Shown here: piece by piece, positions 30,821-33,761 of the stretch | Layout of the letters: each line of letters begins with the position of its first letter | Position numbering within the stretch: the stretch's first letter is position 1 | Program-made: the position numbers and the translations under genes | Notes under the pieces: model-generated | What the model was told of the DNA's origin: nothing | The model's database searches: none | What the model saw: only the letters and a program-made list of their open reading frames with translations | NCBI GenBank assembly: GCA_017412605.1 | Contig: JAFPWY010000009.1 | Coordinates: 248,001 to 312,000, forward strand | Length of the DNA stretch: 64,000 bases | DNA from: Fibrobacter sp. | GTDB taxonomy: Bacteria > Fibrobacterota > Fibrobacteria > Fibrobacterales > Fibrobacteraceae | Direction of reading: 5' to 3'

Positions 30821-31118
30821 TTTACACTTCAAAGCTGAAGCTAGAAGCGAGCAGAACGAAGTCCTCACCTATGTTTTGTTACGGAAACAAGTTTCCGACA
30901 AAACATGGTAACGACATCCTTCGGCGAACGGTTGACAAAGTCAACCTCCTGCGCTAAAGCGCAGAGCCTCAGTAGCCGCAGGACCGAAGTTGTACAAATA
31001 GTACTGCGAGGTCCGAGAAAATCTATGAGGCGAATGCAGCGCAAGCATATTTATATGCTTGCATTGCTGAGCCGATTGGATTTCTGCAAGGAAGTTATGC
31101 GAAGCTTAATAGCGAGGC
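30821..31118. repeat. Array of perfect palindromes between convergent genes
   Basis: A 298-base gap with no credible gene but at least four perfect hairpins in series. At 30871-30906 the arms ATGTTTTGT/ACAAAACAT enclose CGGAAAC/GTTTCCG. At 30930-30946: GGTTGAC/GTCAACC, loop AAA. At 30949-30964: CTGCGCT/AGCGCAG, loop AA. At 31041-31062: GCAAGCATAT/ATATGCTTGC, loop TT. A looser fold (CGCAG/CTGCG and GGACC/GGTCC, 30977-31014) lies between. The words GGCGAACGG (30923-30931) and GAAG recur in the 4.9 kb block. Both flanking genes converge on it, so termination may be one role. Confidence 0.75.
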
Positions 31119-33761
31119 TTATTTTTTCTTGAGCCATGTGCCGCACAGATACATCGTAAACACGACGCTTGTAATCAGGAACATCGCAATGCTGATGCAC
31201 GCCAAGTCGCCAATGCCCTTGAGGCCGCGGTGCGTCGTGAAGAGGAACCCGACAAAGCCCGCGATGGTCGTGGTGGAACTGGCCATCACGTTGCGGCCGG
31301 TGGAATCCATCAACTGGCGCAGAGTCAGGTTCTTGTCACTTATCCAGGAGGTAATCATGTGGATGGTGGCGTCGATGCCGATACCGAGAGCCATCGGAAT
31401 CACGATCACGTTGTAGATGCTGATTTTTCCGAACTCGAACATGTCGGTAAGGAAGCCGAGGAGCCCGAGCGTCAGAAGCGTCCCCATGCCAAACGAGATG
31501 CAGCCGGCAAGGAAGAGTTTGGGCTTGCGGAACGAAATCACGAGCGTACCGAAAATCACGAGGATGATGACGAGGGCGAGCCTGAAGCTGTCCTTCTTGA
31601 CGGAATCAATCACGTCAGAGAGGATGAACTGCGACGAGAACGTACGCAATTCCTCGCCGTCAAAGTTCCAGTGGCCATAGCGTTCCTGGAAGCGGTGCAA
31701 CGCATGAGCATCCCAGCTCGGGAAGTCGCCGTAGATAAAGCCGATCTTGCCGTAGCTGCCGTCCTTTTCGCGCAAAAGGTCCAGCGTCCAGCTGGGAACG
31801 TCTTCGGCGGTGAAGGTTTCCTCGACGGCGGAAAGCTTGCGGAGATTCGCCACGTTCACGGAATCTTCGCCTTCGGCACGGTCAAAGACGCGGGCTTCAG
31901 CCAAGTCACGGATTTCCTCAATGACTTCAAGGCGCTGCTTCTGGGAATCCTGCGGCGGCACGAAACTCTTGAGCGTAAGGAAACTTCCGAGAGTGGAATC
32001 ATGTTCCACAAGCAGGCGTACCATCAGGGTATCATAGAGCTTGTCGAGCTGTTCAGGCTTGGAGCCCATCACGGCAGCCGGCGTCGATGTCACGGCCTTG
32101 CCCGTCGCGCGGGTCACCTTGGTCGAAATCTTGTTGGAGGCCACCTTCGTGTTGGTCGAAACGCGGCGCAGGTTGCGCAGATTATGCTCGAAGTCCACGT
32201 CCTGTGCGAACCACAGCGAGACGGCGCCCAGCGCAAAACATGCGAAGGCCACGTACTTGAAGAACCGGAGAATCTTCGCCTCGTCCCAGGACTTGGGCAA
32301 TAGCGTATTGTCAGGGGCCTTCGGGATACCGCCCATGCACTTCACGAGTACCGGGAGGAACAGCACCGAGGTGAGCATACTGAACAGCACACCGCTCGAC
32401 GCCACCACGCCGAACTCGTAGAAACCGCGGAAATGTGCGGCAAGGAGAGTGAGGAAAGCGGCAATCGTCGTAAAGCTTGCAAGGATGAACGGCTTGAGCA
32501 TCTTCCGCTGGGCCGCCTCGAGGACTTCTTCCAGCGTTGCGTACTTGTGCATGAGCTTCTGCGACGTGCCCAGGATATGGATGGAGTAGTCGATACCGAT
32601 ACCCAGGATGATGGAGGCGACAAACACCGTGAACGGGTTCAGCTTGCCGTAGAAAAGCGCCGTAAACGCAAGCGTCGGGAGGCAAGCGTAGAGCACCGAG
32701 GAAACCACGAGAATCGGGCCCTTCACGCTCCTGAAGAAGAATATCGTGAGAAAGATGATCAGCACGAGGCTTATGGCGAACGAGAAGATGGAATCGTTGG
32801 CCACTTCGTCCACTTCCTTGAGGCCTTCATAGGTGCCTTCGACCGTGAAGCGGGTCGGCACCGGGTATGTCTTGCTGCTGAAATAGGCCAGCAGGGAATC
32901 GGTGCGGGCCAAGATGTGCGTCACGAACTCGTAATCCGTCGAGGGCTTGATCAGTTTAGCGTTCACCACGCCATTGTAGAGAATCTTCCCGGTACTGTCG
33001 GGGCGCGGCGAGCCAATCAGGCGGTTCTTGAGCGCCGACGGGATTGTCGACTTCGGATTCCATTCGTCATCATCACTGAGAGTCTTCGCTTCGTCCTGAG
33101 TCATGAGGGTAGAATCGGAATTGCCCTTCTTGAAGAACGCATCAAAGGCGCTCACCGCCTCGTCGGGAAGCCCCAGTTCCTGCGGCAAGTTTGAATCGAA
33201 CCATACGCGTTCCTTCTTCCCCGCAGTTGATGAGCCCGTCGAATCAGCCGAAGAAGCAGAATCCGCAGCATCTCCCAGCAGGTCGACAACCAGCGGACCG
33301 TTCTTGCGGCCTATTTCCAACTGCAAGTCTTCAAGATTGTCGCGGATATTCTCGAGATGCTTGACCGGCAAATAAAGAAGCGCATTGTCCTTGAAGAACT
33401 GGTTCTCGTTATCCACCTGGGTCGAGACGAAATCGCCCTGCCAGTTCTTTTGAATGTAATCAGCAATGGAATCCTGCAGAGCCACCACCAGATTCATATC
33501 TTCGCTCTGGATGGCAATCATGAACTTGTCCGTGGAACCGAAGCGCTGGTAGGACTCTTCCAAGGCCTTCACGCTGGGCGTATTTTCCGGGAGCAGGTGC
33601 GAAAGGTCGGCATCGAGCTTGAGCCCCGGCTTGAACAAGATAGGGACGGCAAAAAGCAATGCCAAAACCAAATAAAAGGCAAGCGCCTTGTACTGGTGTT
33701 TACAAATTAAGGGGATATACCAATTCGAAAAGCGTTCAATCGGGGATTTCTTATTTGCCAT
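31119..33761 (-). CDS. MMPL/RND-family membrane transporter
   Basis: An 880-residue inner-membrane protein of the RND superfamily, MMPL-type (lipid or hydrophobic cargo exporter driven by proton motive force). One helix near the N-terminus (ALAFYLVLALLFAVPIL) precedes a large periplasmic loop with LDADLSHLLPENTP. A five-helix block follows, including GIGIDYSIHILG; then a second loop and a second five-helix block with MALGIGIDATIHMI. These two GxxxD motifs are the usual proton-relay segments. The first loop contains a Ser/Ala/Asp linker. It lies alone between LtaS-like genes and may move lipid-linked intermediates, but this is inference from position. Confidence 0.88.
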   Translation of the reverse strand: MANKKSPIERFSNWYIPLICKHQYKALAFYLVLALLFAVPILFKPGLKLDADLSHLLPENTPSVKALEESYQRFGSTDKFMIAIQSEDMNLVVALQDSIADYIQKNWQGDFVSTQVDNENQFFKDNALLYLPVKHLENIRDNLEDLQLEIGRKNGPLVVDLLGDAADSASSADSTGSSTAGKKERVWFDSNLPQELGLPDEAVSAFDAFFKKGNSDSTLMTQDEAKTLSDDDEWNPKSTIPSALKNRLIGSPRPDSTGKILYNGVVNAKLIKPSTDYEFVTHILARTDSLLAYFSSKTYPVPTRFTVEGTYEGLKEVDEVANDSIFSFAISLVLIIFLTIFFFRSVKGPILVVSSVLYACLPTLAFTALFYGKLNPFTVFVASIILGIGIDYSIHILGTSQKLMHKYATLEEVLEAAQRKMLKPFILASFTTIAAFLTLLAAHFRGFYEFGVVASSGVLFSMLTSVLFLPVLVKCMGGIPKAPDNTLLPKSWDEAKILRFFKYVAFACFALGAVSLWFAQDVDFEHNLRNLRRVSTNTKVASNKISTKVTRATGKAVTSTPAAVMGSKPEQLDKLYDTLMVRLLVEHDSTLGSFLTLKSFVPPQDSQKQRLEVIEEIRDLAEARVFDRAEGEDSVNVANLRKLSAVEETFTAEDVPSWTLDLLREKDGSYGKIGFIYGDFPSWDAHALHRFQERYGHWNFDGEELRTFSSQFILSDVIDSVKKDSFRLALVIILVIFGTLVISFRKPKLFLAGCISFGMGTLLTLGLLGFLTDMFEFGKISIYNVIVIPMALGIGIDATIHMITSWISDKNLTLRQLMDSTGRNVMASSTTTIAGFVGFLFTTHRGLKGIGDLACISIAMFLITSVVFTMYLCGTWLKKK

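Follow-up and report, generated by a model that had tools for sequence, protein, structure and literature searches.

A stretch of 64,000 nucleotides from a Fibrobacter sp. genome (contig JAFPWY010000009.1, positions 248,001 to 312,000; hereafter the window) raises the question of why several palindromes should be crowded into a single gap between two genes, and what kind of element they might constitute. The gap, 30821-31118, is the entire interval between the stops of two convergent genes (30820 and 31119), the left one being a sulfatase gene on the plus strand. It contains four perfect hairpins, three of 7 bp (30882-30897, 30930-30946 and 30949-30964) and one of 10 bp (31041-31062), whereas shuffled versions of the gap hold 0.07 on average and never more than 2. 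Folded as RNA, it gives z-scores of -7.9 on the plus strand and -7.7 on the minus strand, and not one shuffle was equally good. A sequence-only reading had described a simple chain of four perfect palindromes. Their number indeed lies far above chance, but the supposed 18-base arm is interrupted by a TA bulge on one side, which divides it into stems of 9 and 7 bp, and the gap folds as a single multibranched structure, part of which is a repeated unit. A word, GGCGAACGG, that appeared to connect the gap to a 4.9-kb block occurs twice in the window against 1.2 times expected, and the connection was dropped as chance. The same reading's guess of a composite element or structured RNA was nonetheless a good one, and the words GAAG and CGAG, which it took for linkers of a modular form, do mark a second recurrent module with an internal loop GWA/GA. 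Its palindromes are real, and what it had not seen were the repeated unit, its apparent mobility, its nesting and its fixed orientation to host genes.

An ordinary explanation would be a bidirectional terminator, as might be expected between two stop codons. Yet no hairpin in the gap is followed by a T-run, as had already been remarked, and the gap holds no terminator-like site, that is, no GC hairpin with a T-run. Moreover, elsewhere the repeated unit is found between tandem genes and has a distinct intrinsic terminator downstream of it. We therefore regard this explanation as very improbable.

The repeated unit is a discrete segment of about 118 nt (30859-30976) that carries the first three palindromes. 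The features of the window copy and its surroundings are:

30859 to 30976 (contig 278859 to 278976), minus strand, the best-supported folded strand: 118-nt core unit, apparently mobile; covariance model match of 138 bits, 30-sequence alignment, clean insertion boundaries at loci L111 and L112.
30861 to 30915, minus strand: core domain II, a long hairpin with a one-sided bulge, including ATGTTTTGT/ACAAAACAT and CGGAAAC/GTTTCCG (helices 4 and 5).
30918 to 30972, minus strand: core domain I, a three-way junction with closing stem P1 and its tandem GA/GA internal loop (helices 1-3).
30930 to 30946, minus strand: junction hairpin GGTTGAC-AAA-GTCAACC (helix 3; two-sided changes in 6 of 6 pairs).
30949 to 30964, minus strand: junction hairpin CTGCGCT-AA-AGCGCAG (helix 2).
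30981 to 31014, plus strand carrying the GA-rich loop: second module, M2, with outer stem GGACC/GGTCC, internal loop GAA/GA and apical hairpin; recurs alone and in other copies.
31036 to 31067, no strand: third hairpin, GCAGCGCAAGCATAT-TT-ATATGCTTGCATTGC, with 15-nt arms that are 87% complementary and an inner 10 bp that is perfect; kept in the orthologous locus L154.
30831 to 30850, no strand: distal outer arm of the composite, from the closing stem of the minimum free energy fold; not significant against swapped host ends here.
31101 to 31121, no strand: proximal outer arm, from the same closing stem, reaching the stop codon of the MMPL gene (TTA, 31119-31121); host-end pairing shown at other loci.
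31119 to 33761, minus strand: host gene, an MMPL/RND-like permease (Pfam MMPL, 3.8e-18), with the core in sense in its 3' UTR.

A BLAST search of the same genome with the part around 30854-30974 recovered three further copies, four in total. A covariance model built from 30 distinct copies found matches in 47 of 80 genomes of the genus Fibrobacter, with 0-4 copies per genome. In an even sample of 151 Fibrobacterota genomes the matches fell in 3 of 41 genera, Fibrobacter itself and two sister genera of the same family, and the rest of this phylum sample gave none. Most of the database records bearing the pattern have titles that name Fibrobacter sp., Fibrobacter succinogenes or Fibrobacterales; two records titled Paludibacteraceae/Bacteroidales gave no BLAST match to the core, and six pattern matches in viral contigs lack the fold, and viral carriage was set aside as chance. 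No Rfam family matched at its gathering score (the best match at a relaxed threshold had E = 0.26), and the open-access literature, outside which most subscription papers fall, yielded no earlier description of such an element. The unit is a previously unlisted element, representing an apparently undescribed family of structured mobile elements.

Comparison of the copies reveals a fold of two domains, one a three-way junction of two hairpins with stem P1, the other a long hairpin with a bulge. Among the 30 closest copies, two-sided changes occur in 21 of the 39 pairs, and 99.2% of cells are paired; in domain II (helices 4 and 5) the paired cells amount to 98.8-100%, and 10 pairs have changed on both sides. 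When divergent groups are included, 63 distinct copies show two-sided changes in 32 of 39 pairs, with 97.7% of cells pairing and a covariation score of 0.634 (0.197 in shuffles, at most 0.133 in slid structures), in an alignment that was fitted to the model and so leans towards the structure. The P1 internal loop, 5'-GA/5'-GA, is kept in 60-63 of the 63 copies while the adjoining pairs on both sides covary, and an unpaired word, GAAGGAUGUC, is near-invariant in the window core (minus strand, 30912-30925) and its homologs. Since the core fold is so strongly preserved by paired mutations, we take it to be real, and the existence of both the family and the fold is near certain. The two comparisons that the sequence-only reading had proposed thus came out in its favour, the stems being conserved and covarying between strains and the modules recurring behind other genes.

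Which strand folds, and what process paired the mutations, are separate issues. On the gene-sense strand the changes in the core passed about 26 times via G.U and about 13 times via A.C, in addition to one fixed U.G pair, and G.U cells outnumber A.C cells by 101 to 21 (39 to 21 without the fixed pair); this imbalance gives modest grounds for regarding the gene-sense strand as the one that folds. The tree reconstruction also yielded 134 direct Watson-Crick to Watson-Crick double changes against the 26 via G.U. An excess of direct double changes over single steps is the pattern described for template switching (PMC8794818), and is therefore also what that process would give. According to this explanation, replication template switching at palindromes (quasipalindrome correction) makes the stems and their paired substitutions with little selection on structure. 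It is compatible with mobility, and it would suit the outer arms, which are inverted copies of the host gene end, but it leaves the conserved unpaired bases, the tandem GA loop and the fixed U.G pair unexplained, as it does the clean insertion into genes and the sense-only placement in 3' UTRs. We consider it a possible though doubtful account, and the covariation could stem in part from such switching.

The placement of the copies is as distinctive as their fold. In the main, intergenic group (group A) the gene reading into the unit is always in the same orientation: all 15 different Pfam-identified hosts are in sense (two-sided sign test, p ~6e-5), the core beginning 12 to about 310 nt beyond the end of the ORF. 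These hosts are a Na/Pi cotransporter, T2SS F, a GH94 phosphorylase, GlnRS, adenylosuccinate lyase, a DUF1846 protein, an XPB helicase, a GltD-like protein, a PGM/GlmM-like protein, glutamine synthetase, PGK, KARI, the MMPL permease, GlgE and a class-III aminotransferase. An additional copy follows what appears, as read by eye and without confirmation by Rfam, to be the end of a 5S rRNA gene. Of 33 copies, 23 have an intrinsic terminator at most 150 nt downstream, where shuffles give 5.7; at the window locus none follows the core. In a divergent subgroup (L114-L126, 53-70 bits; e.g. L122:2464-2584) the copies stand behind gpmI, for phosphoglycerate mutase, in many Fibrobacter genomes; these are antisense to gpmI, and after them comes a second, partial copy of its 3' end, as though the end of the gene had been duplicated or supplied anew during insertion.

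Residence in sense in the 3' UTRs of metabolic genes such as glnA, gltD, ilvC, pgk, purB and GH94, together with the strong covariation, the tandem GA and the near-invariant unpaired GAAGGAUGUC, could equally be expected of a functional structured RNA class, either a 3' UTR-derived sRNA or an mRNA regulatory element, that is kept for its activity as RNA and spread by ordinary duplication rather than by selfish mobility. However, the hosts share no function, 33 of the 80 genomes of the genus lack the unit, the core has been freely gained or lost at orthologous sites, and copies are inserted within Rpn-type genes. The unpaired word GAAGGAUGUC resembles the CsrA SELEX consensus, and the invariant AAGGAUGU suggested a CsrA sponge; CsrA (PF02599), which would be a fitting partner for it, was absent from the genome of the window in a search with positive controls, and this candidate was rejected. 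The absence also sets the unit apart from CsrA-sequestering sRNAs of the CsrB/RsmZ type. In its covarying multibranched fold with conserved unpaired bases the unit is like the structured RNA classes of Rfam, unlike them in matching no family there, and a functional RNA class as such we judge rather unlikely.

The copies inside genes (group B) bear most directly on mobility. At L111 a gene of the PD-(D/E)XK family (PDDEXK_2, 7.9e-27) contains an in-frame copy flanked by VEV and QQQGDEF, at a site that is uninterrupted in the homologs L112, L175 and L176; the insert has the ends GGTC...CTCAAGG, and comparison with the uninterrupted homologs reveals no target duplication. L112 has the unit at another place in the same kind of gene, where it causes a frameshift and a stop, and L113 has it near the C-terminus of such a gene. 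In L127, from another genus, two copies occupy one gene, the first carrying a stop and the second shifting the frame; this gene has no Pfam name, and its NCBIfam Rpn-family match (1.3e-7) is below the cut-off of that family. The insertions in Rpn-type genes are found in both orientations. Because a genome has only 8 to 26 PDDEXK_2 matches, it seems unlikely that chance alone restricted the in-gene copies to such genes. Clean insertion into PD-(D/E)XK (Rpn-type) genes without target-site duplication argues that the unit is mobile, and its mobility appears well supported by these comparisons of sequence. Published reports credit Rpn proteins with a contribution to RecA-independent transfer (PMC5350276) and with a role in anti-phage defence (PMC10327210); that they might be linked to the movement of the element is speculation.

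The core is usually nested in M2, a faster-evolving hairpin module of the form X-GWA-hairpin-GA-X', which lies on the strand opposite to the sense of the core. In 16 modules M2 has a conserved G.T pair on the plus strand (in the numbering of the window copy), and A.C in none. As both this pair and the GA-rich loop are on the strand opposite to that of the core, one folded mRNA strand does not explain both modules. Behind glnS, M2 stands alone in L036 (GAGCAAG-AC-CAAGGAACG) and with the core in L021 (GAGCAAG-[core]-CAAGGAACG). At L154, the ortholog of the window locus, most of the core has been lost by deletion, implying that some absences of the core are losses; L155 and L156, further relatives of the window locus, keep an M2-like structure and no core. 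Elsewhere, a reduced core consisting only of P1 and one hairpin (TTACTGAGACTCC...GGGCAGTCTCG) adjoins a full M2 (L044:1501-1700), which suggests stepwise loss of branches.

Around both modules, the composite has an outer stem that often pairs with sequence at or beside the stop codon of the host. An ungapped test with swapped controls, which superseded an insufficiently stringent duplex-energy test of the outer arms, shows a closer fit of the distal arm to the end of its own host gene than to the ends of swapped hosts (permutation p = 0.0009). The pairing is clear at GH94, purB, glmM, glnA and pgk and present at Na/Pi and gltD, and at the MMPL gene of the window it is not significant against swapped ends. 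The simplest guess at the origin of such inverted copies of gene ends is fold-back template switching.

M2 often reads CGTAG followed by a hairpin, a feature reminiscent of the GTAG-tagged repeats of the REP/RAYT type, which an IS200/IS605 tyrosine transposase moves; a hairpin substrate and the lack of target duplication would also be in keeping with such a system. Nevertheless, the GTAG-like word is found in some M2 modules only, and the core is no 20-40 bp palindrome with a terminal GTAG, being 118 nt long and multibranched where REPs measure 20-40 bp (PMC3733652). Furthermore, Y1_Tnp (PF01797) is absent from the genome of the window in a search whose controls were positive, and mobilisation by RAYT/IS200 is accordingly not supported for that genome; we hold this origin to be highly unlikely. 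REP/BIME elements with RAYT (GTAG/CGTC superfamilies, PMC3733652) do share with the present family intergenic hairpins behind genes, likely transcription and modular combinations, and differ from it by a much shorter conserved unit, the Y1 transposase and a copy number other than 0-4. Bacterial MITEs (e.g. the composite repeats ERIC, RUP and BOX) are likewise non-autonomous, modular, intergenic and folded when transcribed, whereas the unit has no sequence-conserved terminal inverted repeats, its outer arms varying with the host gene and pairing with it; and the lack of a target-site duplication at L111 is unlike a MITE of a DDE transposon. By analogy, we conclude that the element appears closest in behaviour to the Rickettsia palindromic elements, which are similar in size (about 120-150 bp) and are also palindromic, dispersed, without a known transposase and inserted in frame in protein genes, as at L111. 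The differences are that it belongs to another phylum and to Fibrobacteraceae only, has a multibranched fold with tandem GA, reaches at most four copies per genome, resides mainly in sense in 3' UTRs, and has its in-gene copies all in Rpn-type genes.

On balance, we think it probable that the gap carries a single copy of a mobile palindromic element, non-autonomous and specific to Fibrobacteraceae, which measures about 118 bp, is nested in M2 and forms a folded structure in the 3' UTR of the MMPL gene. As judged from its position, the element is most likely carried in the mRNA 3' end, where a biological role may be supposed. It would spread as a folded single strand, probably moved by a trans-acting nuclease, which we infer because the element revealed neither coding capacity nor a partner gene. 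Copies landing between stop codon and terminator would be retained, because they would be transcribed there as part of the mRNA 3' end, with the structure being tolerated or protecting that end from exonucleases. A bolder and distinctly improbable version holds that this is a new kind of mobile element that moves as its folded single strand, whether RNA or ssDNA. It would enter 3' UTRs only in sense behind the stop codon, construct its outer stem by copying the end of the host gene in inverted form, and have a connection with Rpn/PD-(D/E)XK nucleases, either serving as their substrate or acting as a parasite that breaks their active-site region. Whichever version holds, the family adds to a clade of rumen cellulose degraders structured mobile elements whose unit, boundaries, fold and host sites are defined. 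Sense-only 3' UTR residence, repeated insertion into Rpn-type genes and outer stems copying host ends make up a system in which two questions can be tested: by what means short, non-autonomous palindromic elements move when no transposase is known for them, and to what extent RNA selection or template switching accounts for the paired substitutions seen in DNA palindromes.

Two further observations concern copies in sister genera and the Rpn-type genes. Two unit copies lie close together in the same orientation both in L130 (2583-2703 and 2799-2919) and in L127 (2478-2596 and 2797-2914). The split PDDEXK_2 matches of genome G095 were considered as core insertions and rejected, one of the loci (L195) reading through and the other (L194) having a different palindrome. 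The latter (L194:850-1041, G095:C29) is an insert of ~80 bp in another PDDEXK_2 gene, placed directly behind the conserved VE codons, a motif that also precedes the core insertion in L111.
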